A stretch of 64,000 nucleotides of DNA. Source: [Empedobacter] haloabium (lineage in GTDB: Bacteria > Pseudomonadota > Gammaproteobacteria > Burkholderiales > Burkholderiaceae_D). The notes beneath the pieces are model-generated. The model was given only the letters and a program-made list of their open reading frames with translations, did not search any database and had not been told where the DNA came from. Of the stretch, positions 1 to 31,118 are shown piece by piece (position 1 is the stretch's first letter; every line of letters starts with the position of its first letter). Location of the stretch: positions 5,022,001-5,086,000 of the forward strand of contig CP136508.1 in the NCBI GenBank assembly GCA_008011715.2, given 5' to 3'. The position numbers were made by a program, and so were the translations under genes.

Positions 1-3000
1 GCGTCGCGCCGCGATAGCTCTGGATGGCCGGGCGCGGCCGGTCCAGCGGCAGCGCGTGCACGGCCGGCGCGTCGGCCAGTTGAGCGTTCCAGTAGGCCAG
101 CTGGCGCAGCGCGGCCGGCTGCTGCAGCCAGTCGCGCTGCCAGTGCGCGAAATCGCTGTAGTGCAATGGCAGCGGCGGCAGCGCCGCGGCGCCGCCGGTC
201 GTGCCGGCGCGGTACAGCGCCGCGAGTTCGTCGGCGAGCACCGCCAGCGAACGGCCATCGCTGACGATGTGATGGACCACCAGTACCAGCACATGGTCGG
301 CATCGTCCAGCCGCAGCAGCGCCGCACGCAGCAGATTGCCCTGTTCCAGCACGAACGGCTGCAGCGTCACGGTGGCGGCGGCGCGCCGGGCCGCCTCCTC
401 GCGCTGCGCCGGAGCCAGTCCCGTCAGGTCCGTGAGCGCCAGCGGCACCGCTGCCGGTGCCAGGATTTCCTGTACCGGCTGGCCGTCCTGCGTGGCGAAG
501 CGGGTGCGCAGGGACGGATGGCGCGCGGCCAGCGCATCGAGGCTTTGCTGCAGCTGCGCCGGCACCAACGTGCCGCGCAGGCGCAGCGCGAGCGGGATGT
601 TGTAGAACGGGTTGGCGGGCTCGAAGCGGTCGAGGAACCACAGGCGCTGCTGCTGCGAGCTGAGCGGATGCCAGCCCGAGCGTTCGCGCGGCGCCGGCCC
701 GGCGTTGTCGCCGCCGGCCCGTTCCACCAGCCGCGCCAGCGCCGCCGGCGTGGGTTCCTCGAACACGGCGCGCAGCGGCAACTGCACGCCGCAGGCTGCG
801 CGGATGCGCGATACCAGGCGCGTCGCCAACAACGAATGGCCGCCCAGCGCGAAGAAATTCTCGGCCGGACCGACCGCGTCGCGGTTCAGCAGCTCGGCCA
901 TGAGCGCGCACAGCGAGGCTTCCAGTGCCGTCGCCGGCGCCGTGTCCGCCACCGCGGGCGTGGCCGCCGGCGCGGGCAGCGCACGACGATCGAGCTTGCC
1001 GTTGGGCGTCAGCGGCAGACGCTCGAGGACCACGTAGGCGGCCGGCCGCATATAGTCGGGCAAGGTGCCGCGCAAGGCCGCCGCGGCCGCGTCGGCATCG
1101 AAGGTGCCGCGCGGGACGACGTATGCGACCAGTCGACGCGCCTCGCCGCTGCCCAACGCCAGCACCACGGCTTCGCGCACTTGCGGCAGCCGGGCCAGCG
1201 CGGCCTCGACGTGGCCCAGCTCGATGCGGAAGCCGCGCAGCTTGACCTGCTGGTCGTTGCGGCCCAGGCCCGCCACCATGCCGTCGGGCAGATAGCGTCC
1301 CAGGTCGCCCGTGCGGTACAGGCGGTCGCCGCCACCGAACGGGTTGGCGACGAACTGGCGTGCCGTCATCGCCGCGTCGTCGCGGTAGCCGCGCGCCAGG
1401 TGCGGGCTGCGGATGCACACTTCGCCCACCTCGCCGATCCCGGCCAGCGTGCCGGCGCCGTTCAGCACCAGCAGCTGCACGCCGGGGATGCCGTGGCCCA
1501 GCGCGATGACGTCGCGCGTCAGGCCAGCCGCCGTACCCGGGGCGATCTCCACCATGCCGAACGCCCGCTGCGCCTCGGTGGCGCCGTAGTAGCTGACCAC
1601 GGCGCAGCGCGGCGCCACCTGCTGCAGCAGGGCCACGTCGGCCTGCGTCAGGATATCGCCCACCAGGAAGGCATGCCGCAATGTCGGCAGAGCGCGTGCG
1701 TCCTGGCACAGCAGCTGCAGCATGGCCGGCGTCAGGTTGACGGCACTGATGTTCTCGGCCGCCATCCAGTCGGCCAGCAGGCCCGGGCCGATGGCGTCCA
1801 CCGGCGGCACGTGCAGGCTGGCGCCCATCCATAAGGTATTGAAGATATCGCGCTGCAGCGGGTCGTGCGCGAGGCCCGACAACAGTGCGTAGCGATCCTG
1901 CGGCCCCATGCCGAAGTGTTGTTGCAGCCATGGGTAGAAGTGCGTCAGCGCGCCGTGGCGGCCTTCGACGGCCTTGGGCAGGCCGGTGGAGCCGGACGTG
2001 AACGTCAGCACGGCGACGTCGTCGGCCGTCCAGGCGGCCGGCACGGCACGCACGCCCGCTGCCAGCACCGGCCAGCCATCGTTCCCGCTCAGATCGAGTC
2101 GCGGCACCGGCGCGGGCAGGCAGGCAAGCAATGCGGCATCGCCGCCCTCGGCCACCGTCAGCCACGCGGCGGGCCGGGCCACGGCCAGGCAGGCGCGCAC
2201 GTGCTCGGCCGGGTAAGCGGGATCGACGATGGTATAGGCGGCACCCGCCTTCAGCACGCCCAGCACGGCCGGCACCAGCGCCGCGCGGCGGGCGGCGCAG
2301 ATCGCCACCACGGCGCCGGCGCCGACGCCGGCCTCCTGCAGCCAGCAGGCCACGGCCTCGCTGCGCTCGTCCAGTTCCGCGTAGGTCCACTGCAGGTGCG
2401 CCGCCGTGACGGCCAGCGCCGCCGGCTGCGCCGCCACCAGCGCGGCAAAGCGGCCGGGAATGCTGCCGTGCCAGGTCGCATCCAGGACGACCGCCGGATC
2501 GGGCAGGACCGCGCGCGCTGGCGCCGTCAGCAGCGACACGGCCTTGCAGGCGATGGCGGGCGCCTGGCTGACCTGCTCCAGCAAGCTGTGGTACTGCCGC
2601 AGCAATTCGCGCATGCGCTGCGCATCGAACAGGCCACGGTTGTACACCAGGTGCAGCAGGATGCCTTCTTCGCTGTCCTGCGCATACAGCGTCAGGTCGA
2701 ACTTGGCGTCCAGCAGCGTGCTTTGCAGTCCTTCGATCGCCAGCTCCGGCGACGTATAGTTCGTCTCCGGCAGGTTGAGCATGTTGAAGAAGACCTGGAA
2801 CAGCGGATTGCGGCTCAGGTCACGCTGCAGCGGCAACGCGTCGACGACCTGCTCGAACGGGATGGCGCTGTGTTCGTAAGCCTCCAGCGCGGTGCGGCGC
2901 ACCTGCTCCAGCAGCGTGCCGAAACCGGCCGCGTCGTCCAGGCGCATGCGCAGGACCAGGTTACCCAGCAGCATGCCGAGCATGCCCTCCAGCTCGCGCC

Positions 3001-6000
3001 GGTCGCGGGTGGCCTGCGGCACGCCGACCAGCACGTCGTCCTGGCCGCTGAGACGGCCCAGCAGCAGGCCGAACGCCGTGACCAGCGTCATGAACAGGCT
3101 GGCATTGTGCGCATGCCCCAGCTGGCGCACGGCGTGCGACAGCGCCGGGTCCAGCCGCAGCTGTTCATCGCCGCCATCGAAGCGCTGCACCGCCGGCCGC
3201 ACGCGGTCGGTCGGCAGGTCGAGCAGCTCCGGCGCACCGGCCAGTTGCCCGGTCCAATAGGCCAGCTGGCGCTCGCGCACGGCTTCGGTCAGTTGTTCGC
3301 GCTGCCAGTACGCATAGTCGGCGTACTGCAGCGGCAGCACCGGCAGCGCCGGCGCGCGGCCGGCGCGCAGGGCGTCGTACGCACGCAGCCATTCGTCGGC
3401 CAGGATGTTCAGCGACCAGCCGTCGCTGACGATATGGTGCACGTTCAGCAGCAGCACGTGCTGGTCGGCCGACAGCCGCAGCAGTTCGGCACGCAGCAAG
3501 GGCTCGCGCGCCAGGTCGAACGGCAGCGCCGCATGGCGCGCGGCACGCGCCTCCACCTCGTCCGGCGCGACGTCGGTAACGGCCAGCGTCACGGTACGCG
3601 ACGGCGCGATGCGCAGGTGCGGCACGCCCTCCACGCTGTCGAAGTTGGTGCGCAGGACCTCGTGGCGCTCGATCAGGTATTGCAGCGCGGCCTCCAGCGC
3701 GGCGGCATCCAGCCGCCCCGTCAGGCGCAGCGCGGCCGGCATGTTGTAGGTCGGCGTGGGACCTTCGAGCTCCTGCACGAACCACAGTCGCTGCTGCGCG
3801 AACGACAGGGGCAGCACCTGGTCGGGCGTACGCGGCAACGCGCGCAGCGGTGCGGTACCGGCGCTGTCCAGGCCATCGACGACGCGGGCGAGATCGGCCA
3901 GCACCGGCTGCTCGAACAACGCCCGCAGCGCCAGCTCACGCTGCAGTACCTGGCGTACGCGCGTGGTCAGCCGCACGGCCAGCAACGAGTGGCCGCCGAG
4001 TTCGAAGAAGTGGTCGCGGCGGCCAACGTCGCGTACGGCCAGCAGGTCTTCCCAGATCGCCGCCAGCGCCGTTTCGGTGCTTCCTTGCGGCGCTTCGTAC
4101 GGCTGGCGCAATTGCGCGGCGGCGTCGGGCGCCGGCAGCGCGCGCCGGTCCAGCTTGCCGTTCGGGCTGACGGGGAACGCCGTCATGCAGACAAAGGCGG
4201 CCGGCACCATGTAGTCCGGCAGCACGGTGGCCAGCCGGTCGCGCAGCGCCGCCGGTGCCAGCGTGTGGCCTGGCTGGGCCAGCAGATACGCCACCAGGCG
4301 CTTCTGTCCCGGCACGTCTTCGCGCGCCACCACGACCGCCTCGCGCACGCCGGCGCACGCGGCCAGTGCCGCCTCGACCTCGCCCGGCTCGATGCGGTAG
4401 CCGCGGATCTTGACCTGGCTGTCGTTGCGGCCCAGGTATTCGATATTGCCGTCCTCCAGCCAGCGGGCGATGTCGCCCGTCTTGTACATGCGCGTGCCTG
4501 GCCGGAAGACATTGCCGACGAAGCGCTCCGCCGTCAGGTCAGGCCGGTTCAGGTAGCCGTCGGCCAGGCAATCGCCGGCGATATACAGCTCGCCATGCGC
4601 GCCCAGGGCCACCGGCTGCAGCGCCGCGTCGAGAATGTAGATCTGGGTGTTGGCGATCGGCGCGCCGATCGGCGGCAACGCGGGCCACGCGCCCGGATCG
4701 CCGTCCAGCACATACGTCGTCACGACGTGGCTCTCGGTCGGGCCGTAGTAGTTGTGCAGGCTGCGGCCGGCGCGCATGCGGAAGAACTGCACGATGGCGG
4801 GACTGATGCGCAACTGTTCGCCTGCCGTGATCATCGTGTTCAGCGCAGGCAACGGTTCGCCCAGCTCCACCGCCGCCTCGGCGATGTTCTGCAGCGCGAC
4901 GAACGGCAGGAAAATGCGTTCCACGTCGTACCGGCGCATCAGCCGCACCAGTTCGCGCGGATCGCGCCGGATGGACTCGGCCAGCAGCACCAGGCTGGCG
5001 CCATAGCACAATGCGCTGAAGATCTCCTGGAACGTGGCATCGAAGCCCAGGGCGGAGAACTGCAGCGTGCGTTCGCGCTGGGCCAGCTTCGAACGCGACG
5101 AAGCCTGCCACCGGATCAGGTTGACCAGCGGGCCCTGGGCCATCGCGACCCCTTTGGGCCGGCCGGTCGAGCCGGACGTGTACAGCACGTACATCAGGTT
5201 GGCTGCGGCCTGCGCCAGCGGCGGCGCGGGCGGGTTCGCATCCGGCAGCCCGTCCAGCACCGCCAGGCCTTCGGCCAGCAGCAGGCAAGGCAGCTCGGCC
5301 GCCAGCCGGCGCACCGGCTCCAAGGCCGCCAGCAGCGGCGCCTGGGCCAGCAGCGCCCGGGGCGCGCTGTCGTCGAGCATATAGGCGATACGCTCGACCG
5401 GATAGGCCGGGTCGAGCGGCATGTAGGCGGCGCCGGCCTTGAGCACGCCGAGGATCGCGACCACCATCTCCAGGCCACGCTCCATGCAGACGGCGACGCG
5501 GTCGTTGGCACCGATGCCATGGCCGTGCAGGAATTGCGCCACCTGGTTGGCACGGCGGTTCAGCACCTCGTACGTCATCGTGTCGCTGCCGTACAGCAGG
5601 GCCAGCGCGCCGGGATCGGCGGCGGCCTGGTCTTCGACCATCTGGTGCAACTGGCGGGTGTCGTCGAAGTGCTGGGCGCTGTCGTTGAATTGCACCAGCA
5701 CGCGGTGGCGCTCCGCCGCGCCCAGCAGCGGCAGGCGCGACAGCCGCTCGCCCGGCGCGGCGGCGGCGCCTTGCAACAGCTCGGCCAGGTTGGCCGCGAG
5801 CCGGTCGGCGCCGGCGGCGTCATGGACATCGGCCGCCAGTTCGAGGCGGCAGGCGCCGTCGTCGGTCGCGACGATCGCCATGTCGGCCGGCAGCGGGCCG
5901 TCATCGGCCAGCGCGAACGCGGCCGCATGGCGTGCCGGCAGCAGGCTGGCGGGCACGCCGGCGTGTGCGGCGCAGGCCTGCAGCGCGCCAGCGGCACGCG

Positions 6001-9000
6001 TCAGCAGGACCGTTGCAGCCGGGTCGTCGCCGGTCTCGGCCACCAGCGGCAGCAACGGTCCGCCGGCGCGCAGGCGTACGCCGGTCAGCACGGTTTCCTG
6101 CCCGCTCAGGCGCGCCAGCAGTGCCAGCCATGCCCCCAGCAGGATGGCGCCGCGGGACAGCCCGGTGCGCGCGGTCAGGGCCGCCAGCGCCGCCGTATCG
6201 ACGGCCCGCACATGCCGCTCGTCCGTGCGTTCCGCGCCCGCGGCCAGCGCCAGCGTTTGCGGCAGGTTCAGGTGCGCTGGCGCTTCGGCCAGCCGGCCCC
6301 GCCAGAACGCCATGTCGTCTTCCAGCTGGCGCAGCGGCCATGCCGCTCCCTGCGCATCGCAAGCGACGGCGACGTCGCCCGCGGGCGCACCTGTCGCCAG
6401 CACGCGTTCCATCGTTTCGGACAGCAGGGCCGGCAGGTCGGGATGCTGCGCCCACTCCGGCGCGATCCGCCACTCCAGCCGCTGGCCGTCCTGCTCCACG
6501 CTGGCGGCGATATCGAACGGCGCCTGTGCCGGCGCGCGCTCGATTGCCGCGACACGCAGGGCGCAACGGGCCAGCGCCGCCTCCAGCACCGCCGCCGGGG
6601 CGACGCCCTGCCAGCGCAACCGGGCCACTGCCGCACCGGCCTGCGCCAGCACGGGCAGCAGGCGATCGGCACGCTGCGGGATCGGCGCGTCGAACGCCTG
6701 TGCCATGCAGTCGAGGGCGAACACGAACTCGCGCTGCAGCGTTGCGACCTGCGCCGCCGTCAGCGCCAGGCGGCTTTCGAGCGTCAGCGTCAGGCCGCTC
6801 TGCAGGTTGCCGTTGACCAGCACCGCCAGCTTGAAATTGGTTTCCTCATAGCTGTTGCCCGGCTCGATCTGCAGCCACTCGGCCGCCTGCAGCGCCTCGC
6901 TGACATGGAAGTTATTGTAGGTAAACAGCGTGTCGATCTGCAGCGCCCGTTGTTCGCGCACGATGTGCGCGAACGGGAAGCGCCGGAACGGCTTGCGCGC
7001 CACCTCGTCCGCCTGCAACGCGGCGGCCAGCTGGCGCCAGCTGGCGTCCAGGTCGAAGGCCACCGGCAGCACGTTGACGAACAGGCCGACGATGTTCTGC
7101 GCGCCCGGCGTTTCGGGCCGGCCGTTGTCCGTCAGCGCCGTGCTGAGGCGCTCACTCGGCAGGAGCGCGCGCAGCATGTACGCGTGCGCCATCATCAGCA
7201 GCGTTTTCAGCATCACGCCATCGGTCGCGACACGTTGCGCCAGGCGTGCGGGCAGGTCCGCCGGCAAGGGCAGCGTGTGCAACACCGCTTCGCCCTGTTG
7301 CGGCAGCCGCGCCGACAGCGCGCCGCTGCCGGCGGCGCGGCAATACGTACGCCAGTGCGCGGCCGCGGCGTCGTCCTGCTCGGCCGCGGCCTGCTGGGCG
7401 ACGTAGTCGGCGAACCGCAACCCGCCCGTGTCGAAGACGTCGGCCAGCGGCAGGCCGAAGCGCAGATGGCCGTAGTGCTCGAAGATCTGCCGCTGCAGCG
7501 TTGCCATGCTCCAGCCGTCCAGGATCGCGTGGTGCGCGTCGATCAGCAGCTGGATGCAGCCCTCGGCCTTGCGCAACACGGTGAAGCGGATCAGGCTCGG
7601 GCCGGACAGGGCGAAACCGGTGCGCTTGAGCGAAGCGATGGCCGTGGCCACCGCCGCCTCCTGCTCCGCCGCGGACAGGTGGCGCAGGTCCTGCTCCGAC
7701 CACTCCGGCTCGACGCGCGCATACACCAGTTGCAGCGGCTCGGACACGGTATCGAGTTCGAAGCCGGTACGCAGCACCTGGTTGTGGGCCAGCACCAGCC
7801 CCACGGCCTGCTTCAGCAGGGCGGCATCGTAGTCGAAACGCAGCTCGTAGCTGAAGACATCGTGGTACATCGCACTGTCCGGCTCCATCCGGCAGTGGAA
7901 CAGCATCCCCTGCTGCAGCGACGTGACCGGGTAGGCATCCTCCAGCCCTTCCGGCAGAGCGGCCAGGTCGGCCGGGTCGACCAGCGCGAACGGTGCGAGC
8001 GCCTCCGTGGTCGTGACGGCGACATGCGAACGACTGTCGCAGAACGCGGCCAGCTGTTCCAGTACCGGGTATTTGAAGATGTCGGCCACCGCGACCGCGT
8101 ACCCCAGCTTCTGCAATTCCGCCACCAGCTGGATCGAGAAGATCGAGTCGCCGCCGACGGCGAAGAAGCTGCTGTCCGCCTCCACCGCGACCTCGCCCAG
8201 CAACTGGTGCCAGATCGCGGCGATGGCCGCTTCGGTCGCACTCAGCGCGCGCGTGGCGGACTGGCGGGTGCTGCGGTGTTCCTCGTACAGCGCCAGCAAC
8301 GCCGCCGCCGCGATCTTGCCGTTGGCACTCAGCGGCATCGACGGCACGAAGACGATATCGGCCGGCACCGCGTGGCGCGGCAGGTGGCGCGCCAGTTCGG
8401 CACGCAGCTGCACGCTGTCCAGATCGGACGGCAGGCCCGCCACGAAGCCCACCAGCATCTCGACGCGGTCGCGCGCATAGCGCTGCACGCTCAGCGTGCG
8501 GCCCGGCAGCAGGCGCGCCATTTGCGCCAGCACTTCGCCCGTCTCCACCCGCTTGCCGCGGATCTTGATCTGGCCGTCGCGGCGGCCCAGGTACAGCACA
8601 TTGCCGTCGGCCTCATGGCAGGCATAGTCGCCGGTGCGATAGATACGCCCCTGTGCCAGCGCGGCGTGCACGAAGCTGCGCGCATCCGCGTCCGGCAGCT
8701 GGTGATAGCCGCGCGCGACGCCGCAGCCGGCAATCACCAGTTCGCCCGGCGTGCCGGGTGGGCACAGCGCCAGCTCGTCGTTCACGATGAAAGCCTGGGT
8801 GTTGCGGATCGGCCGGCCGATCGTCACCGTGGCGCGCGCCAGCCAGGTCGCGGCATCGGCCGCGAACGCCAGCGAGATATCGGTGCACTCGGTCGGGCCA
8901 TAGATATTGGCCAGCAGCGCACGGCAGTTCGGGCTGTCCAGCCACGGGCGTACCAGCCCCAGGTCCAGCGCCTCGCCGCCGACGGCGAACATGGTCAGCC

Positions 9001-11314: not shown

Positions 11315-11315
11315 A

Positions 11316-13735: not shown

Positions 13736-16700
13736 GCGGCTTCCTCCTCGTCGTCCAGGTCCAGTACCAGCACCTTCTTGCGGCTTGCCGTGGCAAGCGC
13801 CGCGGCGATATGGTCGGCCTGCTGCGCCAGCTGCTGCAGCTGGTAGAGCTGACCCAGGCTGAGCGTCACGCCGAACGCTTCCTGCACCAGGAAGCTGAGC
13901 TTCGTCAACGCCAGCGAGTGGCCGCCCAGCTCGAAGAAGTGATCGAAACGGCCCACCGCCGCGACACCGAGCACGCCTTGCCAGATGTCGGCCAGGCGCC
14001 GCTCGATGCCGTCCTGCGGCGGCACGAAAGCCTGCCGCGCCAAGGCATCGTCATCGGGCAGCGGCAGCGCATCGCGATCGAGCTTGCCGTTGGGTGTCTG
14101 CGGCAATGCCGGCAGCGCGATGAACGCTCCAGGCACCATGTAGTCCGGCAGGCGTGCCAGCAAGGCGCTGCGCAGGGCCGCCGGTTCGGGCGCCGTATCC
14201 GCGCGTGGCACCACATAGGCCAGCAGGCGCTGCTGGCCGTCCGCCCCCGCACGGGCGATCACGGCGGCATCGGCCAATGCCGGCTGGGCGCGCAGCACGG
14301 CTTCGATTTCGCCCAGCTCGATGCGGAAGCCCCGTACCTTGACCTGGAAATCGTTGCGGCCCGCATAGTGCAGCATGCCGGCCGCATCCCATCGCCCCAG
14401 GTCGCCGGTGCGGTACAAGCGGGTATCGGGGTGCCCCGGTTCGGCCAGGAAGCGCTGTGCGGTCAGGTCCGGCCGGTTCAGGTAACCGCGCGCCACGCCG
14501 ACGCCGCCGATATGGATCTCGCCGACCGCGCCGACCGGTACCGGCTGGCCCGCCTCGTCCAGGATATGGATGCGGGTACCCGCCAGTGGCCGCCCGATCG
14601 GAATGGCGCCGCCGGCGCGGCCGTCGTAATGCCAGGTCGTGGCGCAGACCGTGATCTCGCTCGGACCATAGGCGTTGACGAAACGGTGGCGCCGGCCCCA
14701 GTGGGCGGCGACGGACGGCGGGCAGGCTTCGCCGCCCACCAGCAACGTCATCGGCGCCAGCCGCTCGTCGTCAGCCATGATCGCCAGCACCGAAGGTGGC
14801 AGCAGCGCGTGGCTGATGTTCTGCTCGCCCAGGAACGCGAGCAGCGGCGCGCCCGGCATCAGCGCGGCGCGCGGTGCGGAAACCAGCGCCGCGCCGCTGG
14901 CCAGCGCCATGACGATTTCCCAGATGCTGGCATCGAAGCTGATCGACGCGAATTGCAGCACGCGGCTGCCGGGACCGATCGCCAGCGCCCGGTTCTGGTC
15001 CGCCGCCAGGCTGGCCAGGCCGCCATGTTCCACCTGCACGCCTTTCGGCTGTCCCGTCGAGCCGGAGGTATAGATCATGTAAGCGAGATGGCCGGGGCCA
15101 ACGGCGGCGCCCGATGCCGGCGCCGGCGCAGCGCCGGGCTGCGCGCCGCCCGCTTCGATCAGGCAGCAGGGCACGGCCGCCAGGGCCGGTCCCAGCGCCT
15201 GTGCCTCGGCCAGCAGCGCCGGTTCCGTGACGAGCGCCGCCGGCATGCAGTCCTGTGCCATGTATGCCAGCCGTTCGCGCGGATACGCCGGATCGAATGG
15301 CACGTAGGCGCCGCCAGCTTTCAGGATCGCCAGCACACCGGTGATCAATCCGATGCCGCGTTCGGCATACAGGACCACCCGGCTGTCCGGTCCCACCCCG
15401 GCGGCCGTAAGCGCGCGTGCCAGCGTGTCGGCCCGCGCGTTCAATTCGGCGTACGTCAGGGTGGTACCTTCGTGCGTCAATGCCACGGCGTCCGGGTTGC
15501 GTGCCGCGTGGGACTCGAATGCGCGATGCACCAGCGGCGCGGCGCCGGCGGGCGTGCCGGCGCCCAGCCGTGCCAGCAAGGCCTGCTCGGCTGGCGCCAG
15601 CAATGCCAGCGTTTGCAACGGTGCCTGCGGCGCGGCGACGATGCTGGCCAGCAGTGTGAGCAGGTTATCGGCCAAGCGCGCCACCGTGGCGCGTTCGAAC
15701 AGCGCGCAATCGTATTCAAAGCGGCAGTCCAGGCGGTCGCCGCGCGGCGTGATGTCGAGCGTCAGGTCGAATTTGGCGCCACCGTTGTGCACGTCGAGCA
15801 CGCGGCCGGACAGGGCCTCCAGCGCCACCTCGTCCTGCGGCGCGTTCTGCAGCGCGAGCATGGCCTGGAACAGCGGCGTCTGGCCGGCCTGGCGCGCACC
15901 GGCGCTGGCCGCCACGACCTGTTCGAACGGGAGGTCCTGGTTGGCGAATGCCTGCAGCACCGTTTCGCGCACCTGCGCCAGCAGCGCCTCGAAGCCGTGC
16001 GCCGGCTCGAGCGTCAGGCGCAGCACGAGCGTGTTGACGAAGAAGCCGACCAATCCTTCCAGCTCGCCATGATGGCGGTTGGCGATCGGCGTGCCGATGC
16101 ACAGGTCGCGCTGGCCGGAGTAGCGGCCCAGCAGCACACCGAAGGCGGCGCTCAGTACCATGAACAGGCTCGCCTGCCCTTCGCGCGCCAGGCGCCGCAG
16201 GCCTGCCAGCAGGCCCGGTTCGACGGTGAAAGCCAGCACGTCGCCGCGCAGGGCCGGCAGGGCCGGACGCGGATGGTCCAGCGGCAAGGCCAGCATGGCG
16301 GGCGCGTGCGCCAGGCGGTCGCGCCAGTAAGCCAGCTGATTGTCGAACGCGCCCTCTTCCGCGCGGCTGCGCTGCCAGCGGGCATAATCGCTGTACTGGA
16401 GCGGCAAGGCCGGCAGTGCCGCCGGCACACCACGGCGGGCGGCGTTGTACAGCACCGACAGTTCGCGGCTCAGGACACCGATCGACCAGCCGTCGGCAAT
16501 GATGTGGTGCATGACCAGCAGCAGCACGTGCCGGGCCGGCGCGACGTGCAACAGGGTCGCACGCGCCAGTGGCGCGCACTCCAGGTCGAACGGCACCTGC
16601 GCCGCGGCGACCAGCCAGTCGTGCACCGCCTGCGGCGCCGCGTCGGCCAGGCTGGCGGTCTGCAGCGGCAACGCGGCATGGGCGGCCACCGCGCACAGCG

Positions 16701-19700
16701 GCTCGCCGTCGACGGTGACGAAGGCGGTACGCAACGCCGCGTGCCGCCGCGCCAGCAGGTCCAGCGCGTGCTGCAACGCGGGCACGTCGACCGCCCCCTC
16801 GAGCTCGACGGCGAACGGCAGGTTGTAGACGGCCGGATTCTCGCCCAGCTTCTGCAGCACCCACAGGCGCTGCTGCGCATACGACAGCGGCGCCAACGCG
16901 CCCGCCGCGGCGCCGTCGCCGGCGGCCAGGGCCAGCGGGCCGCTCGCGGCCTTGTCGGCGCGGTCGATCTGCTCGCCCAGTGCCGCCAGCGTCGGGTATT
17001 CGAACAGGGTGCGCAGCGGCAGGTCGACGCCAAGGCGCGCGCGCACATGCGACATCACCTGCGTGGCCAGCAGCGAGTGGCCGCCCAGCTGGAAGAAGTC
17101 GTCGGCGCGACCCACGTCGGCACACTTCAGCACCTCCGCCCAGATTTGCGCGAGCGCCTGCTCGGTGGCGCCGCTCGGCGCGACGAACGGTGCATGCAGG
17201 TCCTGTACGGGTCGCGGCAACGCGGCCCGGTCCACCTTGCCGTTGGGGCTCAACGGGAACGCCGGCAGCTGGACGAAATGCGACGGCAGCATGTACTGCG
17301 GCAGGGTTTGCGTCAGCGCCGCACGCAGTGCGACGGGATCGAGCGCGGCCTGCGCATCGACGCCGACCAGGTAGGCGACCAGGCGCACATCGGCGGCCAG
17401 ATCGTCGCAGGCGAGCACCAGTGCCTGGTCGATGGCCGGCAGCGCCGCCAGCGCCTCTTCGATTTCCCCGAGCTCGATGCGCAGGCCACGCACCTTGACC
17501 TGGTGATCGATACGGCCCAGGTATTCCAGCACGCCGTCCGGCAGGGAGCGCACCAGGTCGCCGGTGCGGTACATGCGCGCGCCTGGCTGCCCGGCAAACG
17601 GATCGGGCAGGAACCGTTCGGCGGTCAGTTCGGGACGGTGCAGATAGCCGCGCCCGACCCCGTCGCCGCCCACATACAGCTCGCCCACGGCGCCTTGCGG
17701 CACCAGCTGGCGGCCGCCATCGAGCACATACAGGCGGGTGTTGGCGATCGCCCGGCCGATCGGCAGCGTCGTCACCGGCTCATGCGGGTGCCAGGCGTAG
17801 TGCGACACGACATCGGAGGCCTCGGTCGGGCCGTACGTGTTGTGCACCAGTGGTGGCGTGGCGACGTCGCGGTATGCCGCGCGCAGCAGGCCGACCTGGA
17901 TCGGCTCGCCGCCCAGGAAGACGGCGCGCAGCGACGCCATGCGCGCCGCGCCGCCGTCGGCCAGCAGCGGATAGAACGCGCTGGGCGCGCAGTTGATCAG
18001 CGTGATCCCGGCGGTCCCCGCATAGGCGCCGATGCGTTCCGGCGCGTAGTCGTCCGCCATCAGGTGCAGCTCGCCGCCGACCAGCAGGATGCCGAAGATG
18101 TTCTTCTGCGTCAGGTCGAAGCTGAAGGACGACACCAGCAGCACGCGATCGGCCGCGCCGATGGCGTACTCGCGCACGAACCACGTCAGCAGGTTCAGCA
18201 CGCCCTGGCGCTGCACCATGGCGCCCTTCGGCTTGCCGGTCGAACCGGACGTGTAGATGACGTATGCCAGGTCGTCCGGCCCGCCCACCGGAGCCGGTGC
18301 GCTGTCCGGGTGTGCCGTGTGATCGGCGTCGATCACGATGGCCGGCGCCTGCGCCGGCAGGCGCGCGGCCAGGTGCTGTTGCGTCAGCACCAGCGCCGGG
18401 GCGGCGTCTTCCAGCATGTATGCGAGGCGCGCGGCCGGATAGTTCGGGTCGAGCGGCAGGTAGGCACCGCCGGCCTTGACGACGGCCAGCACGGCCACGA
18501 CCATGTCGAGCGAACGCTCGACGCAGACGCCCACCAGCACGTCCGGCCCGACGCCGCGCGCGCGCAGCAGGTGGGCCAGGCGGTTGGCCCGGCCGTGCAA
18601 CTGGGCGTACGTCAGCACCGTGCCGGCGCAAGCCACCGCCGGCGCATCCGGCGTGCGCGCGGCCTGCTGCTCCAGCAGCGTGGCCAGGTTGGCCGTGCGC
18701 GGGTAATCGTGGCGGGCGGACTGCCACTGCGCCGACAGCGCCGCCAGCTCACCTTCCGACAGCAGCGCCAGCGCGGCGACACGCGCCTGGGCATCGGCGC
18801 CGACCTGTTCGAGCACGCGCACGTAGTGGCCGGCCAGCCGGGCGATCGTCGCTTGGTCGAACAGCGCCGTGCTGTACTCGAACACCAGGTCCAGCTCGGC
18901 GCCGACGCGGTTCATCTCGATCTTCAGGTCGAACGCCGCGTACTGGACGCTGGCCGCGTGGCGGCCTTCGATGTGGAGCGCGTCGCCGTCCGGTGCCAGC
19001 GCCGCCTGTTCCTGGCCTTCGAACTCGCTGTGGTAATTCAGTACCACCTGCGCATAGGGCGTGTAGGCCGGGCTGCGCTCGGACACCACGTGCTGCAGGA
19101 TCAACTCGAACGGCAGCTGGCAGTCGTAGGCGGCCAGCAGGTTCGCCGCCGTATCGGCAAGCAGCGCCGCGAACGTATCGTCGCCGTGCACGCGGGCACG
19201 CAGCGGCACCACGTTGACGAAGTTGCCCGGCATGTGCTCGGTACCTGCCGGGCGGTTGGCCGACAGGGCGCCGATGGCGAAATCGGTCTGGCCGGAATAG
19301 CGGTACAGCACGGCGTTCAACGCCGCGGTCAGCACCATGAACAGCGTCGCGTTCGAGCTGGCGGCAAGCCGGTTCAGGTCGCGCACCAGTGCCGCCGGCA
19401 CGCGCGTCTGCCATGCCCGGCCTTCGTGCGCCATCACATTGGCGCGCGGCCGGTCGGTCGGCAGCGCCAGCAGCGGCGAGGCGTCGGCCAGGTTGGCGCG
19501 CCAGAATGCCAGCGCCGCGGCCAGCGCCTCGCCCTGCCAGCGGCGCTGCTCCCACACGGCATAGTCGGCGTACTGCAAGGCCGGCGCAGGCAGGGCCGCG
19601 GCCTGACTGTCGCGCAGCGCCGCGTAGATGCGGCGCAGTTCGCCCAGCAGCACCGGCGTGGACCAGCCGTCGTGCACGATGTGGTGCAACGTCAGCAGCA

Positions 19701-22128
19701 GCACATGGCGCGTATCGGCAATCGACACCAGACTGGCTCGCAGCAATGGACCGGCCGTCAGGTCGAATGGCTGCGCGGCCTCGGCACGCACGATGCGTTC
19801 GGTGCGCGCCTCGGCCTCGGCGACCGGCAGCGCGGCCAGGTCGACGATGGTCAGCGGCAGCGCCAGCTGCGCCGCCACGTGCTGCCGCGGCACGCCGCCG
19901 TCGGCGGGGAAGCTGGTACGCAGCGTGTCATGCCGCGCGACCAGCGCGTTCAGCGCCCGTTCCAGCAGTGCGGCATCGACGGCGCCCGTCAGCGCGAGCG
20001 CCAGCGGGATGTTGTAGAACGGGTTGCCGGGCTGGTACTGGTCGAGGAACCAGAAACGCTGCTGGGCGAACGACAGCGGCGCCAGACCCGCGTGCCCGGC
20101 CGGCGCCAGCACATCGGTGGCGCCGCCCGCGGCCGCGTCACCGACCGCCGCGGCCATCGCCCGCGGGGTCGGCGCGTGGAACACGACCCGCAGCGGCAGC
20201 TGCACGCCGAATGCCGCGTTGACGGCACCGATCAGCTGGGTCGCCAGCAGCGAGTGGCCGCCCAGGCGGAAGAAATTGTCGTCCAGCGCCAGCGGCGCCT
20301 GCTCGAACAGCTCCTGCCAGATCGCCAGCATGCGCTGCTCGGCGGGTGCGACGGCACCCGCCACCGCGGCCACGCTGTCGTCTTCACGGCGCCAGCTCCA
20401 GATGGGATCGAGGGCGCCTTCCAGATACAGCTGGCGGCACGCCACGCGCTGCAGCTTGCCGCTGGAGGTGCGTGGAATGCGGCCCGCCTTGACCAGCACG
20501 ACACCGGCCAGGTCGAGGATGTCGTGGCGCTCGGCCAGCGCCTCGCGCAGTCGGGCCACCAGCGTGGCCGTGTAGGCCTGCTGGCGCGCCTCGAGCTCCT
20601 GCACGACGACCAGCGCGGTCGTGGCGTCGTCCTCCACCGCGAACACGGCGCAGCCGCTGGGCCGGAAAGCGGTATCGAGCTTCTCGACCGTGATCTCGAC
20701 GTCCTGCGGATAGACGTTGCGGCCGTTAAAGATCATCATTTCCTTGATGCGGCCCGTGATGTACAGGCGGCCATCGGCGACGAATCCCAGGTCGCCCGTG
20801 CGCAACCAGCGGCCGGGGCCACCGGCCAGCGCGGCGCCGAATACCGCCGCGCTGGCGTCCGGCTTGCCCCAGTAGCCATCGGCGACGGATGGGCCGCTGA
20901 TCCAGACTTCGCCGACCGCGTTGTCCGGCAGCGCCACGCGGCTGTCCGGCTCGACGCAAACGATGCGGTGCGCGCCGTTGACGGCCGCGCCCGTGCAGGC
21001 AATCTCGATCTCGTCCGCCGCGCCGGCGCTGTCGGTCACGACGTTGCGCTCCAGCGCCGCCTTGCTGAGATGGCGGCTGTGCGGCAAGGCGCCCGGCCGC
21101 TTGTCCATCGCCGCGCAAGCCAGCAGCACACACTCGGCCATGCCATACGCCGGCACCATCGCTTCCGGCCTCAGGCCGCAGTCGGCGAAGGCGGCGGCGA
21201 ACTCCCGTACCGTCTCCATGCGGATACGCTCGGCGCCGTTGACCGCGACCTCGAGGCAGGACAGATCGAGGCCGGCACGCTGCGCCGGCGTGACGCGCTG
21301 CGCGCACAACTGGTAGGCGAAGTTGGGCGCGCCGGTGATGCGGGCGCGGTATGCCGCGATGAGCTTGAGCCAGCGGTGCGGGCGCATCAGGAACGCGGCG
21401 GGCGGGAACTGCACGCTGTGGCAGCCGACATAGACCGGCGAGACGATCGTGCCGATCAGGCCGAAGTCGTGGTGCGGCGGCAGCCACGAGACGAACACGT
21501 CGTCGCCGCGCATGCCGTACAGCTGCTGGCTGAGGGCGACGTTGGCCAGCAGGCTGGCATGGCTCACCATGACGCCTTTGGGCGCACCGGTCGAACCCGA
21601 GGTGTACTGCAGGAACACGATGTCGCTGGCACGCACCGACGGCTCGCGCCATGGCGGCGCCGTCTCGTCCAGCGCATCGGTCGCCAGCCAGTGGCAGCGG
21701 CGCAGCGCGTCGTCGCCCGCCGCGCCATCGACGATCGTGGCGCGGATCGCGGCGCTGGTCAGGGCCGCGCTGGGCTGGGCGTCTTCCGCCTGCAGCCGCA
21801 GCCGCGGCAGGGCACGCGGATTGGCCGGCGGCAGCGCGGGCACGGCGGTGACACCGGCGTACACGCAGGCATAGAAGGCGACGATGTAGTCCAGGCTGGG
21901 CGGATACACGAGCAGCACGCGGTCGCCCGGGCTGGTGACCTGCTGCAGGTGCGCCGCCAGGCGCTGCGCCGCGGCGTCGAGCTGGGCATAACTGAGCGCA
22001 CCGCTGACCGATTCACCATCGTTCAGATAGGTGAAGGCCGGCCGGTCCGCCGTGCCGGCGGCGCTGGCACGATGGCGGAGGACGTCGAACAAGGTCGCGC
22101 AGGTGTCGGGTATGGCGGAGGTATGCAT
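13732..22128 (-). CDS. Non-ribosomal peptide synthetase A with fatty acyl-AMP ligase starter
   Basis: 2798 residues. Order: fatty acyl-AMP ligase (FAAL) 1-585 with [10 protein letters not shown] at 177-186 and the FAAL-type [10 protein letters not shown]; acyl carrier 590-665 (GGHS, Ser626); C1 682-1120 (HHIVHDG 815-821); A1 1140-1640; PCP 1655-1725 (Ser1685); C2 1745-2190 (HHIIADG 1874-1880); A2 2200-2690; PCP 2708-2778 (Ser2738); and an acidic tail ending DLDDEEEAA. It should load a free fatty acid as the acyl-adenylate, N-acylate residue 1, add residue 2 and pass the chain to synthetase B. Pocket residues by GrsA alignment: A1 D-L-K-N-F-G-T-D-V, not assigned; A2 D-A-W-L-L-G-A-V-C, suggesting a hydrophobic or aromatic residue. 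There is no epimerase or thioesterase. It starts 24 nt after the exporter and overlaps the next gene by 4 nt. Confidence 0.97.
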
Positions 22129-22152
22129 ACGGTGGCGAGTAAGAGAAAAAAT

Positions 22153-23775
22153 TCAGGCGGCGGCGCGCTGGAGATCCGTCAGCTGGCCGTGCTCCAGTTT
22201 CAGCAGCCGGTCGGCGCACTGGAAATAGGCATCGTCATGGCTGATGACCACGACGGTCTTGCCGCGTGCCTTCAGGTCAGGCAGCAGCTCCGTGTAGAAC
22301 ACCCGCTTGAACACGGGATCCTGGTCGGCGGCCCATTCGTCGAACAGATAGATCGGCCGGTCTTCCAGGTAGGCCAGCACGAGCGCGAGACGCTTGCGCT
22401 GTCCCGTCGACAAGTTGACCGTGGAGAACTTGCCGTCCACGACCTTGACCTTGTGGCCGAGGCCGAGCGCGCTGACATAACGCTGGGTTTTCTCGCCTGC
22501 CCCGGTTTCGTTGTTGAGCAGATGCTCGAACAGGTGAAAATCCGCCAGCACCGCCGAGAAGAACTGGCGATAGTGGGCGATGTTGGCGGACGTGACAGCC
22601 GTGCCGTTCAGGTGCACCGCGCCGCCTTCCGGCTCATACAGTCCCAGCAGCACCATGGCCAGCGTCGTCTTGCCGCTGCCGTTGCCGCCGATGATGAAAA
22701 CGATCTCGCCAGCATGCAGGCGCAGGTTCACCGGTCCCAGCGTGAAATGGGTGTCCTCGACGTCGCCCGGATAGCGGTGCGTGACCTGGTGCAGCTCCAG
22801 GACCACGGGCCGCGCGCGGTCGAACGGCTGCGGGCCCGCCAGCGTGGGGGGCGCCTGATTGAGCACGTTGTCCAGCTGCTGCATCTTGTTCAACGCGATG
22901 CCGGACTGGCGCAGCGACGGCAGTGCGCCCATCAGCTCGCCGATCGGGCGGATCAGGTACAGCAGCACCAGTGTCACCGTCGTCAGCGTCTGCACCGGCT
23001 GCGGGATCCAGCGCGGCACGATGAACAGCACCACGCCGATGACCAGGTAGAACAGGATCGCCCCCACGTTCAGCACCCACGTGTAGGCCGTCGTCCCCTG
23101 GACGAACGCCCGCTTGTAGAGCTGTGCGCCGGGCGCGATGACGCGGTGCACGAATGCCTCGCCCCGCTCGGCGTTGAGCTGCAGCTCGCGGCTGCCGTCG
23201 ACCAGGCTGCGGAAGTTATGGAACAGCAGGTCGACGTGCTCGCGGACCTGGCGCATCAGCCGGATCGGATGCTGCTCGGCCAGGTGGAACGCCCATGCGC
23301 CGATGACGAGGCAGGCGGCCAGGATGGCAAACAGCGACCAGGACAGCCAGGCCAGGTAAGCCAGGCAGACCACGATCAGGATCAGATTGCCCAGCGCCAG
23401 CGGCACCAGGACGAACGACTGCACGAAGACGTCGATGTCCTTGGTCAGCACGACCAGCAGGCCGGGCTTGCCCAGTTCCTGCAGGCGACGCGCCGGCGTG
23501 GCCAGCAGCTTGTTGCTCAGGTTGATGCGCAGCTGCAGGATCGCCCGTTGCGTCAGGTGCAACAGCGACAGCTCGGAAGCCGTCTTGGCCAGCATGTACA
23601 GCAGGCAGTTGCCGAAGAACATCCAGGCCAGCGTATCGAGCGGCGCACTGTTGCCGATGCCTTTGCTGATCAGCGCCACCAGCGAAGCGCCGGCCAGGCC
23701 GCTGATCAGGGCGCAGGTCGTGGACAGCCACAACAGCTTCCAGGATTGCTCGTGCAGATATCGCAGCAGGTTCAT
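22153..23775 (-). CDS. Cyclic-peptide/siderophore-type ABC exporter (SyrD/PvdE family)
   Basis: 540 residues from ATG 23775; an ATG at 23802 lies inside the upstream gene and is less likely. An N-terminal six-helix membrane domain (about 1-290) is followed by an ATPase domain: Walker A GGNGSGKTT at about 363-371, signature LSTGQRKR, Walker B PIYLFDEWAADQDP, and a switch His in VISHDD. The fused single-chain layout and the LSTGQ signature are typical of exporters of lipopeptides and pyoverdine precursors such as SyrD and PvdE. It lies 7 nt after the PLP enzyme and 24 nt before synthetase A, so it should export the finished or precursor peptide across the inner membrane, working as a homodimer. 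Confidence 0.92.
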   Translation of the reverse strand: MNLLRYLHEQSWKLLWLSTTCALISGLAGASLVALISKGIGNSAPLDTLAWMFFGNCLLYMLAKTASELSLLHLTQRAILQLRINLSNKLLATPARRLQELGKPGLLVVLTKDIDVFVQSFVLVPLALGNLILIVVCLAYLAWLSWSLFAILAACLVIGAWAFHLAEQHPIRLMRQVREHVDLLFHNFRSLVDGSRELQLNAERGEAFVHRVIAPGAQLYKRAFVQGTTAYTWVLNVGAILFYLVIGVVLFIVPRWIPQPVQTLTTVTLVLLYLIRPIGELMGALPSLRQSGIALNKMQQLDNVLNQAPPTLAGPQPFDRARPVVLELHQVTHRYPGDVEDTHFTLGPVNLRLHAGEIVFIIGGNGSGKTTLAMVLLGLYEPEGGAVHLNGTAVTSANIAHYRQFFSAVLADFHLFEHLLNNETGAGEKTQRYVSALGLGHKVKVVDGKFSTVNLSTGQRKRLALVLAYLEDRPIYLFDEWAADQDPVFKRVFYTELLPDLKARGKTVVVISHDDAYFQCADRLLKLEHGQLTDLQRAAA

Positions 23776-23782
23776 TGTGCGC

Positions 23783-25036
23783 TCAGTACGTGACGACGGC
23801 ACGCGCGTCGTGCGCTTCGATGCCGGCAGCCGCGCGCGCGGCCCCCTGCTGCACGGCCGCCGCCAGGTCGTCGAAATAGCGCTCGGCGACCTGCTCGTGC
23901 ACCAGGTTGACGGTCTGCTGGATCGCTGGCGGCTCGGCGACGAGGCTCATGTACCAGCCGCGTTCGCGCATGTCGTCGGCGATGCTGAAGATGTTCGCCT
24001 GCGGCGCCGTCACGGTCACGACGGCCAGGTCCGGCGGTCCCAGCACTTCCAGGCCCAGCGCGCGGAAACCGGCGATGTAGTGGTCGCGCAGGCGCATCAG
24101 CCGGGCGGTGGTGGCCAGGTAGCCCTCCTCGCCCAGGAAGTGCATGACGGCCCAGGCCGAAGCGATCGTGCCGCCCGAGCGCGTGCCGGCCAGCGTGGGC
24201 GTGAAATAGTCGCCCTTCGGCCAAGCGTCGAAGCGGCAATATTGATAGTCCAGGTCGGCCTCGTCGCGGTACAGCACCAGCGACGCGCCTTTGGCCGAGT
24301 AGCCGAACTTGTGCAAGTCGGCCGACATCGAACGCACGCCCGGCACGGCGAAATCGAACGGCGGCACGGGATATCCCAGCTTGGCGACGAACGGCGCCAG
24401 CATGCCGCCGATGCAGCTGTCCACATGCAGCCAGGTGCCCGTGCGCAGCGCCAGCTGGCCCACTTCGGCGATGGGATCGACGAGGCCGTAGGGCAGCGAT
24501 GGCGCCGAGGCGACCAGCAGGATCGTGTCTTCGTCCATGGCCGCTTCCAGTGCCGCCACGTCGCAGCGATAGCCCGGTTGCAGCGCGGTGCGCCGCACGG
24601 TCAGGCCGAGCAGATGCGCGGCCTTGTCGAACGCCGGGTGCACCGACCGCGGCAGCACGATATTGGGTTGCTTGCGCGGCCGGGTTGCCGCGGCGAAGTC
24701 ACGGGCGGCCTTGACGGCCAGGATGATGCTCTCGGTGCCGCCGGACGTCATGCAGCCGGCGCTGCCCGAGGGCCCGTGCAGCAGGCCCAGGGCCATCGCC
24801 ACCACCTCCTGCTCCATCTGGCGCGTGCTGGGGAATGCCACTGGCGCCAGCGCGTTGGTGCTGGCGAACATCGCATAGGCCTCGGCCGCGACCTGGCTGA
24901 CGTCATCGTTGGCGTAGTAGCAGTGCAACGGCAGGCGGCCGTCCCGGTGGGACCAGTCGAGCGATTGCAATTCGGCCAGGCGTCCCTTGATGCCGGCCCA
25001 GCTGGCACCGCGTGAAGGTAGCGTGTATGTGGTCAT
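23783..25036 (-). CDS. PLP-dependent enzyme, sphingosine-1-phosphate-lyase-like (group II decarboxylase fold)
   Basis: 417 residues; AGGAA lies 5 nt before the ATG. MTSGGTESI is the phosphate-cup motif, HVDSCIGG has the cofactor-binding Asp, and SADLHKFGYSAKG holds the Schiff-base Lys. The run GTRSGGTIASAWAVMHFLG is close to the bacterial and eukaryotic sphingosine-1-phosphate lyase signature rather than to glutamate or aromatic decarboxylases. S1P lyases cleave the C-C bond beside a beta-hydroxy amine by a retro-aldol step. Placed in an operon with hydroxylases and NRPSs, it may cleave or form a beta-hydroxy amine or amino acid, or decarboxylate a precursor; the substrate cannot be read from sequence. 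The family call is firm, the reaction is open. Confidence 0.85.
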   Translation of the reverse strand: MTTYTLPSRGASWAGIKGRLAELQSLDWSHRDGRLPLHCYYANDDVSQVAAEAYAMFASTNALAPVAFPSTRQMEQEVVAMALGLLHGPSGSAGCMTSGGTESIILAVKAARDFAAATRPRKQPNIVLPRSVHPAFDKAAHLLGLTVRRTALQPGYRCDVAALEAAMDEDTILLVASAPSLPYGLVDPIAEVGQLALRTGTWLHVDSCIGGMLAPFVAKLGYPVPPFDFAVPGVRSMSADLHKFGYSAKGASLVLYRDEADLDYQYCRFDAWPKGDYFTPTLAGTRSGGTIASAWAVMHFLGEEGYLATTARLMRLRDHYIAGFRALGLEVLGPPDLAVVTVTAPQANIFSIADDMRERGWYMSLVAEPPAIQQTVNLVHEQVAERYFDDLAAAVQQGAARAAAGIEAHDARAVVTY

Positions 25037-25144
25037 GGAGTTCCTAACAGGAAGTGGTGAGCGGCGACGCGGACGCAGGCATCCCCGGGGCCGGCATGGC
25101 GGCCCTGAAACGACAGCGGGGAATGGCCGCGCGCGGCGCCGGCG

Positions 25145-25924
25145 TCAACGTGCCGGCAATATGGCGCGCAGGGGATCGAAGCTGCGGGCGGACAGGAACG
25201 CCGGACGGTCTGACAGCTTGCGCGGCGCATTGCTGACCGCGTTGACCGTGATGATCATCAGGCGCCGGTCGGACCCGGACATGTTGTTGGAGGAACAGTG
25301 CGCAAGCTGTGGGTCGAACACGATCACGTCGCCGGCCTGCGCCAACATGAACTCCGCGCCGTGATTGTCGAGCAGGCGCGAGACGACGGATTTGTCCAGC
25401 TGATAGGTCAGGTCGGCGGAGACCGCCTTTTCCCAGCCGGCGTCCACTTCGCTGCCGTAATTGATGAGGTCACCATGCTTGTGGCTGCCCGGAATGAAAC
25501 ACATCGGCCCCTGCAGCATCGTGATGTCACCCAGCGCGATGGCGATGTTCAGCAGGCGGGGCGCCTCGATATGGTCGAACTCGCGCCAGTAGACGAAGTC
25601 CTGGTGCCACGGCCACGCGCGGCCCTCCAGGGCTTGCTTCATATTGATCTTGTACTGGTGGATGTAGACCTCGTCCTCCAGGTAACTGGTGCACAGGTCG
25701 ACCAGTTCCTCACGGCAAGCCAGGTCGAGGAAGGCGGCATCCTCCAGATGCGGACCGTGCACGCCACGCACGGCGGTGGAACCGGTTTCCCGCACCACAC
25801 CGGCACTGTTGTTGGCGATCAGCGCGTCGATTTTCGCATTGATCACGCCGATCTCGTCCAACGAAAACACGCCGGGCATCCGGCAAAAACCAGCTGCAGC
25901 AAGCTCACCCAGGAATCTGTTCAT
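25145..25924 (-). CDS. Fe(II)/2-oxoglutarate dioxygenase, phytanoyl-CoA hydroxylase (PhyH) family
   Basis: 259 residues. The WHQDF motif (residues about 106-110) supplies the iron-binding His and Asp. The distal His is in QLAHCSSNN, and the RRLMIITVNAV segment carries the Arg expected to bind 2-oxoglutarate. The WHQDF..W pattern followed by a leucine-rich strand is close to ectoine and free amino acid hydroxylases of this superfamily. It is the first gene of the NRPS operon, about 100 nt downstream of the predicted promoter and 108 nt before the PLP enzyme. It most likely hydroxylates a free or carrier-bound amino acid used in the peptide. The start ATG has only a weak ribosome site (AGATAAG). 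Confidence 0.88.
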   Translation of the reverse strand: MNRFLGELAAAGFCRMPGVFSLDEIGVINAKIDALIANNSAGVVRETGSTAVRGVHGPHLEDAAFLDLACREELVDLCTSYLEDEVYIHQYKINMKQALEGRAWPWHQDFVYWREFDHIEAPRLLNIAIALGDITMLQGPMCFIPGSHKHGDLINYGSEVDAGWEKAVSADLTYQLDKSVVSRLLDNHGAEFMLAQAGDVIVFDPQLAHCSSNNMSGSDRRLMIITVNAVSNAPRKLSDRPAFLSARSFDPLRAILPAR

Positions 25925-27560: not shown

Positions 27561-27589
27561 CCCAAACAATGACGAGAAGCGAACAAGCG

Positions 27590-30155: not shown

Positions 30156-30179
30156 TCATTGCTCCTAGATTCGATTCAT

Positions 30180-30371: not shown

Positions 30372-30490
30372 GTAAAGACAAGTCGTCCTTACACGTCGGC
30401 AAATGGCGACTATAAGGAACACATAAGGTTATGCCCTTGACGCATGCTCGGATTTGCTATCTACAAACGGTATTCGACAATAACCGGGAC

Positions 30491-30530: not shown

Positions 30531-30575
30531 CGACGATCAAGAGGCGCGGCGCCCCGTGATTTCGTCAGGAAGCCA

Positions 30576-31085: not shown

Positions 31086-31118
31086 AGTGTTTCCGATCAG
31101 TGGTGATTTTTTCTTATC

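Follow-up and report, generated by a model that had tools for sequence, protein, structure and literature searches.

A FAAL-primed peptide synthetase operon of [Empedobacter] haloabium with a MetA-like protein beside CmlA and a beta-alanine-type terminal module

We analysed a window of 64,000 bases of [Empedobacter] haloabium DNA (bases 5022001-5086000 of contig CP136508.1, the single contig, 6,478,808 bases long, of this genome). Its left part carries a nonribosomal peptide synthetase (NRPS) operon, described in an earlier sequence-only reading as seven co-directional genes in positions 1-25924. All seven are indeed uninterrupted frames on the minus strand, and their identities are upheld by family matches (Pfam profiles, NCBIfam/TIGR profiles and PDB sequence comparison). 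Minus coordinates denote bases to the left of window base 1.

26034-26061, minus strand: promoter-like TTGACA-16-TATAGT upstream of the PhyH gene, 11 of 12 consensus bases; a weak site, with one found against 0.8 expected in shuffles
25145-25924, minus strand: PhyH-family dioxygenase, GriE/EctD-like, 259 amino acids (Pfam PhyH, E 5.5e-28)
23783-25036, minus strand: pyridoxal phosphate (PLP) enzyme resembling sphingosine-1-phosphate (S1P) lyase and MfnA-type decarboxylases, 417 amino acids (PDB and MfnA model)
22153-23775, minus strand: cyclic-peptide ABC exporter, 540 amino acids from its ATG (TIGR01194)
13732-22128, minus strand: NRPS1, FAAL-T-C-A-T-C-A-T, 2798 amino acids (domain profiles)
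12941-13735, minus strand: MetA/HTS-like acyltransferase of an NRPS-linked clade, 264 amino acids (Pfam HTS, E 2.5e-37)
11316-12944, minus strand: CmlA-type di-iron beta-hydroxylase, 542 amino acids (CmlA_N, E 8.5e-76)
1-11314, minus strand: NRPS2, in-window part of a 4630-amino-acid protein that reaches -2578 (domain profiles)

Several overlaps of 4 nt had been noted between these genes. An ATGA overlap occurs at two of the six in-window junctions (NRPS1/MetA-like and MetA-like/CmlA) and is missing at the other four; the CmlA/NRPS2 gap is 1 base and the PhyH/PLP gap 108 bases. The operon extends to the left of base 1 on the same strand, and its whole region runs from -12332 to 26175: NRPS2 and NRPS3 share a further 4-base ATGA overlap, a TonB receptor gene follows NRPS3 after 107 bases, and a 450-amino-acid orphan follows the receptor after 6 bases. 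The last module, the release domains and the receptor thus lie outside the stretch covered by the sequence-only reading. Two longer frames were discarded: a CmlA open reading frame (ORF) of 593 amino acids has a false N-terminal extension, since homologues begin later, and a 98-amino-acid extension of NRPS2 precedes the point where its TubC_N docking domain begins.

The assembly line starts with a fatty acyl-AMP ligase (FAAL) domain followed by a carrier (T) domain. NRPS2 contains four modules of condensation (C), adenylation (A) and T domains plus a fifth condensation-type stretch, i.e. four A and five C-type regions. NRPS3 (2035 amino acids) has the order docking-C-A[monooxygenase]-T-TE-TE, where the tandem thioesterases (TE) carry the motifs GWSAGG and GHSFGG; its C domain has an HH[IL]xxxxGD motif, which we take to be that of dual condensation/epimerisation domains. 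Counted over NRPS1-3, C-A-T modules with seven amino-acid A domains lead up to the TE pair. The FAAL, the seven A domains and the terminal thioesterases together let an N-acyl heptapeptide be expected, which fits the earlier proposal of an N-acylated peptide longer than five residues. The exporter scores 472.4 bits with TIGR01194 against a cut-off of 286.2, measured on a longer GTG frame.

20869-22068, minus strand: FAAL domain, the fatty acyl-AMP ligase start (AMP-binding place converted to window coordinates; FAAL-type models)
17641-18675, minus strand: A domain of residue 1, DLKNFGTDVK, homoserine type (near-identical published codes)
14479-15519, minus strand: A domain of residue 2, DAWLLGAVCK, hydrophobic or aromatic with low confidence (code reading)
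8702-9757, minus strand: A domain of residue 3, DAKNAGIDIK, an uncommon code, followed by a GGDS T domain (code reading)
5705-6682, minus strand: degenerate stretch of condensation type that lacks HHxxxDG, located behind the C domain that follows residue 3 and ahead of the next A domain (the fifth condensation stretch)
4550-5635, minus strand: A domain of residue 4, DAQFIAYVVK, Pro-like (comparison with control codes)
1385-2437, minus strand: A domain of residue 5, DPRNFVYRAK, Lys2/aminoadipate-reductase-like (TIGR03443)

The specificity code of an A domain is read at ten positions, which we located by alignment and by eye. As a control we used the empedopeptin-type NRPS locus of the same genome, where seven of eight A domains could be read: Pro, Ser, Pro, Arg, Asp, Ser, (unread), Asp. 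The empedopeptin pattern published for Massilia sp. YMA4 is the same (PMC8069584; this and the other papers cited by PMC number are drawn on in excerpt, and statements on them hold for those excerpts). The control locus, at about 2301700-2330000 of the chromosome (G000:C1; L057, L058, L062), has its eight A domains followed by two TauD dioxygenases. The window cluster does not have the empedopeptin order Pro-Ser-Pro-Arg-Asp-Ser-Pro-Asp, and its codes differ.

For residue 1, the near-identical code DLKNFGSDVK is assigned homoserine in PMC7524897, and DLKNVGSDVK and DLKNLGTDVK are assigned homoserine or its lactone (Hse/Hsl) in PMC12283262. The residue-3 code DAKNAGIDIK has 6 of 10 positions in common with the homoserine code. 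The residue-4 code shares 7 of 10 with each of two control Pro codes, and that of residue 6 (DVGDLGAVNK) shares 6 of 10 with the control Arg code, an assignment of low confidence. The code of residue 7, VDTMISTGDK, is of beta-alanine type by one rule: VD in place of D235 presumably marks beta-alanine. The degenerate C stretch was considered as a conserved interface domain and rejected: its counterpart in genome G237 reaches 24% identity (E 6.9e-4), that of Massilia rubra is no better than an ordinary C domain, and in Pseudoalteromonas luteoviolacea it is absent.

The most unusual neighbour of these modules is the MetA-like protein. C109, H202 and E204, the catalytic Cys, His and Glu of MetA, are invariant, but the lysine of the MPxK motif is lost: the window protein reads MPNA. 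We take this lysine to be implicated in MetA catalysis, and the MetA residue numbers are likewise as we understand them. A tree of 12 proteins sets the five cluster-borne MetA-like proteins apart in a clade with support 0.999. Where the other seven aligned proteins have the lysine, each of the five has A or L, and all five keep the Cys, the His-x-Glu and TGAPVE or SGAPVE. The gene adjoins CmlA in the window, in G237, in M. rubra and in two P. luteoviolacea records; P. luteoviolacea also has a second, ordinary MetA.

Matches at E 1e-20 occur in 7 of 294 genomes of the family. The close ones are the window, G237 (48%) and G138 (43%), and the remaining four, all from one genus, are K-type MetA. 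In both G237 and G138 the MetA-like gene stands beside CmlA (69% and 59%, respectively), before an NRPS whose first A code is DAKNAG[LV]DIK. The idea that the clade is widespread was dropped: among 369 genomes of the class only the window genome has it, and in a phylum sample the other eight of the nine genomes above threshold (398 in all) have MetA of MPKK or MPDK type without CmlA nearby.

The CmlA protein has both the CmlA N domain and a metallo-beta-lactamase-fold domain with HxHxDH. Its PDB scores are 380 bits with 8a90, presumably FrsH, and 338 bits with CmlA; the motifs THTHMDH and GEHAD are invariant in three relatives. A profile search of named genome contigs with the CmlA alignment gave at least 12 loci, 2 of them at chance level and 10 real. 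Among the matches listed, the DAKNAG code appears in five of these ten (L030-L032, L036, L037) and was not seen in the other five. The five are from Lysobacter antibioticus, L. chinensis, Massilia rubra (whose record is that of G138) and two strains of P. luteoviolacea. Together with the window and G237, DAKNAG[ILV]DIK thus stands beside CmlA in at least seven clusters, a set that was reached through CmlA and is therefore biased in its favour. Five of the seven, among the matches listed, have the MetA-like protein; both Lysobacter genomes, with DAKNAG module and CmlA, have no MetA-like match at E 1e-5.

The simplest reading, we infer, would be an NRPS-dedicated acyltransferase acting on the residue loaded by the DAKNAG domain. 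We tentatively propose a cassette in which this A domain would load a homoserine-like residue on the GGDS carrier, CmlA would hydroxylate it there, and the hydroxyl, still carrier-bound, would be acylated by the lysine-less MetA-derived enzyme. That enzyme would be the first of MetA fold to be dedicated to an assembly line. The cassette would be movable as a unit between beta- and gammaproteobacteria, and in this operon it would be combined with a beta-alanine/isoserine end fed by an S1P-lyase-like aspartate decarboxylase; the whole is possible rather than probable. Alternatively, the MetA-like protein could make free O-acyl-homoserine, or a non-lactonising blocked form of homoserine, for direct loading by the DAKNAG domain. 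The six code positions common with the homoserine code would suit such a substrate, and Ala in place of Phe at code position 299 could admit the acyl group. We find this route improbable: the same code occurs in the two Lysobacter genomes that have no MetA-like match at that threshold, and the lysine that we believe to take part in MetA catalysis is missing.

The second unusual part is the terminal module. Residues 1005-1341 of NRPS3 are a MupA/Atu3671 luciferase-like flavin monooxygenase (TIGR04020, 458.6 bits, cut-off 244), inserted in the A domain between motifs A8 and A9. Its closest PDB relative is PuwE, at 338.9 bits. PuwE is assigned to the making of a 3-amino-2-hydroxy acyl unit (PMC4219810), and domains of this kind in polyketide synthase (PKS) modules hydroxylate alpha to the thioester (PMC10204066). 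Isoserine is the beta-alanine equivalent of the PuwE unit, which points to isoserine at module 7; it is likely the last residue, as far as the code and the domain allow a prediction.

Within the genus, a related monooxygenase domain was found in 10 of 74 genomes. The parent A code is readable in seven of the ten (it is unreadable in L021-L023): five are glycine-type, with three A8/A9 and two A4/A5 insertions, and two, the window and G333, are beta-alanine-type, both VD.MIS.GDK. The PLP enzyme has homologues in the same 74 genomes only in the window, G333 (67%) and G323 (38%). G333 is therefore the sole other genome with a close PLP homologue and, among the seven readable codes, the sole other with a beta-alanine-type module. 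This co-occurrence suggests that the PLP enzyme supplies beta-alanine; at a contig end of G333, its gene comes after an NRPS gene. The S1P-lyase-like label of the sequence-only reading holds as a similarity, and the gene may be better read as a beta-alanine supply enzyme, although with 245.2 bits it stays below the MfnA model cut-off of 299.4.

A different fate of the last residue can be imagined. The monooxygenase might oxidise the carbon next to nitrogen and split the residue to leave a terminal amide, as in myxothiazol and melithiazol. MtaG and MelG release their amides through alpha-hydroxylation of glycine (PMC10204066), and the luciferase-like insertions of the genus are mostly in glycine-type modules (five of the seven readable). 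Set against this, the alpha carbon of a beta-amino acid is not bonded to nitrogen, so its hydroxylation gives no carbinolamide, and the insertion at A8/A9 is that of SolF, where hydroxyglycine is kept, not the A4/A5 insertion of MtaG (PMC10204066). We regard amide release as unlikely, and isoserine as the preferred last residue.

Residue 5 stands apart by its A domain. It scores 427.5 bits with TIGR03443, more than with the generic A-domain model (358.8 bits), and of six A domains scanned the other five do not list TIGR03443. The automatic alignment gave VE for RA at the last variable positions of its code, and we adopted the ungapped reading. The codes of Lys2 and ACVS were our background for this type. 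PMC12283262 and PMC3547906 assign DPR-type codes to aminoadipate or Asn. A special link to LgrA module 2 was rejected: the 433 bits of the PDB score add up from two domains, of about 206 and 226 bits.

The orphan gene downstream of the receptor occurs in 2 of 294 family genomes, the window and G018, and in both it is near a Lys2-like module. In G018 it lies between NRPS genes, directly after a module with the A code DPRHFVIRAK, and among the seven A domains of the cluster that of residue 5 is its best match, at 312 bits, while none of the other six exceeds 196. The arrangement makes the orphan likely a cluster gene tied to residue 5. It has no Pfam, NCBIfam or convincing PDB match; an ATP-grasp reading made by eye was rejected on this ground and because the structure model is unusable. 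The G018 locus (L085-L088; G018:C1 3930001-4000000), from another genus of the family, is an NRPS cluster; besides the orphan homologue and the DPR-type A domain, it has a flavin monooxygenase inserted in a glycine-type module.

The PhyH protein has a WHQD motif. Its PDB relatives are 7e01 (164 bits), the leucine hydroxylase 5nch (146 bits) and EctD (91-97 bits), and a 48% homologue lies in the P. luteoviolacea cluster region.

The TonB receptor raises the question of what the product does. The peptide may be a siderophore or metallophore, exported in acylated form and retaken by the receptor in the style of pyoverdine precursors, with the beta-hydroxylated residue 3 and the alpha-hydroxycarboxylate of a terminal isoserine as ligands. 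The receptor gene lies close behind NRPS3 on the same strand, and in G237 and M. rubra receptors of the same broad family adjoin the related synthetase clusters. Relatives (G237, M. rubra, P. luteoviolacea, Marinibactrum and P. amylolytica) have a penicillin-acylase gene by the exporter, which recalls pyoverdine maturation. In the same genome, a scan of five genes flanking the empedopeptin-type cluster showed no TonB receptor; a second NRPS locus, which has a chorismate-binding enzyme, does have one. Yet no standard chelator gene was found among the cluster genes scanned by Pfam, nor a Fur-box-like site in 250 upstream bases (best 11/19, shuffled mean 11.1), and the receptor scores 45.5 bits against a siderophore-receptor cut-off of 223.5. 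No penicillin-acylase (PvdQ-like) gene is near the cluster: the genome has five, all elsewhere. The closest receptor homologues in G237 (53%) and M. rubra (51%) lie outside their clusters, where the in-cluster receptors reach 40-41%, and the P. luteoviolacea region has no receptor homologue. We rate a metal-binding role as a doubtful possibility.

Equally, the product could have no metal role and be a cyclic lipodepsipeptide that is secreted as an antibiotic or surfactant; the receptor would then be a neighbour or serve another substrate. The tandem TE, as in empedopeptin and Pseudomonas cyclic lipopeptides (PMC8069584), and the cyclic-peptide exporter agree with this, as does the mixed evidence on the receptor. 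The co-directional position of the receptor 107 bases from NRPS3 and the receptors beside two related clusters speak on the other side, and we hold the balance here to be about even.

We also considered and rejected conservation of the receptor with the cluster, since in the other genomes its best relatives lie elsewhere. Some matches in the family tables bear ectoine, chlorinating-enzyme or siderophore-receptor names; they fall below cut-off, and we made no use of them. The second NRPS locus, at about 2509000-2533000 (G000:C1; L059-L061), with its chorismate-binding enzyme and own TonB receptor, probably makes a catecholate siderophore.

Other genes surround the operon. Further left, on the same strand, follow an alpha/beta-hydrolase (by eye), a Cupin_8 protein and a long peptidase-like ORF (by eye). 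On the right, beside the operon promoter region, a divergent plus-strand gene (26175-27560) has a C-terminal Asp/Arg beta-hydroxylase domain (PF05118, 3.4e-41); it may or may not be part of the cluster. It is followed on the plus strand by a 654-amino-acid ORF (27569-29533) with a sub-threshold DUF2608 match alone. Positions 30001-32000 have a low GC content, 0.575 against 0.65-0.72 around, and two ORFs tested there have no Pfam match.

The gene set and domain order, with seven A domains, tandem TE, exporter and downstream TonB receptor, belong to the sequence itself. What they make is a matter of prediction. Residue 1 would be homoserine. Residue 3, a homoserine-like amino acid on the GGDS carrier, would be beta-hydroxylated by CmlA while bound, then acylated at its side-chain hydroxyl by a MetA-like protein rebuilt for a carrier-bound or hydroxylated acceptor; the group would probably be acetyl (for MetA, the acetyl rule concerns Glu111). 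Residue 4 would be proline-like and a possible target of PhyH, and residue 5 of aminoadipate type, perhaps modified by the orphan. For residue 7 we predict beta-alanine that the S1P-lyase-like PLP enzyme has produced from aspartate. The inserted monooxygenase would turn it in line into isoserine by alpha-hydroxylation, and the TE pair would then release or cyclise the product. That the operon makes a FAAL-primed, N-acylated heptapeptide with this tailoring we believe and doubt in equal measure.

Several points weigh against it. With its MetA lysine lost, the acyltransferase could be dead or repurposed, and the two Lysobacter genomes without it make acylation at most optional. G333 has its PLP gene and its beta-alanine module on different contigs, and both contigs are free of MetA-like, CmlA and PhyH homologues. 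The PLP enzyme matches S1P lyases in the PDB with 317 bits and MfnA, an L-Tyr/L-Asp decarboxylase, with 97. The structure model of the orphan is unusable (mean pLDDT 41.7).

The interpretation given by the sequence-only reading is thus supported in part. The acyl peptide fits, as does hydroxylation, for which CmlA, PhyH with its WHQD motif and the in-line flavin monooxygenase are candidates. O-acylation is suggested at most: the retained Cys, His and Glu speak for it and the lost lysine against it. Two parts are unusual: the MetA-like clade, which has CmlA and DAKNAG as partners, and the beta-alanine module, which has an in-line oxygenase and a likely supply enzyme. If the predictions are true, MetA-derived acylation coupled to di-iron beta-hydroxylation would be a new decoration of nonribosomal peptides, and MetA of MPNA or MPDL type beside CmlA and a DAKNAG A domain would be a handle for genome mining. 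The module would offer a simple in-line route to isoserine, and the S1P-lyase-like gene, otherwise annotated as lipid metabolism, would gain a concrete function.

The assembly line is apparently undescribed: the earlier claim that the gene set has no described counterpart is not contradicted in the open-access full-text literature, in searches partly aimed at it. The P. luteoviolacea NRPS region (L036, L063-L065), which spans 78 kb and has two CmlA genes, resembles it in its MetA-like protein, CmlA, FAAL, exporter, 48% PhyH homologue and the code DAKNAGIDIK, there that of the first residue. The region differs in its penicillin acylase by the exporter, its second CmlA and the absence of a receptor homologue among what was found, and no close match to the monooxygenase domain was reported for it.

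The host itself is Massilia-like, to judge by the class sample, the empedopeptin-type cluster and the relative in M. rubra. Empedopeptin (PMC8069584) shares a Massilia-type host, a lipopeptide NRPS, tandem TE and separate hydroxylase genes, but has a starter C domain instead of FAAL, another residue order, and TauD dioxygenases instead of CmlA, PhyH and an in-line flavin enzyme. Kasumigamide (PMC5061366) has a CmlA-type hydroxylase (KasD), a beta-alanine residue and a cyclic-peptide exporter; its modules are different, and neither FAAL nor a MetA-like protein figures in the excerpt. Puwainaphycin (PMC4219810) likewise starts with FAAL and has a luciferase-type monooxygenase assigned to alpha-to-thioester hydroxylation of a beta-amino acyl unit, but PuwE is part of a PKS/NRPS hybrid and acts on the fatty chain, whereas the window domain is inserted in a beta-alanine-type A domain. 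Flavin monooxygenases within NRPS A domains are also found in solanimycin SolF, myxothiazol MtaG and melithiazol MelG (PMC10204066). Their modules are glycine modules, in contrast to the beta-alanine-type code found here; the insertion in SolF is at the same A8/A9 place.

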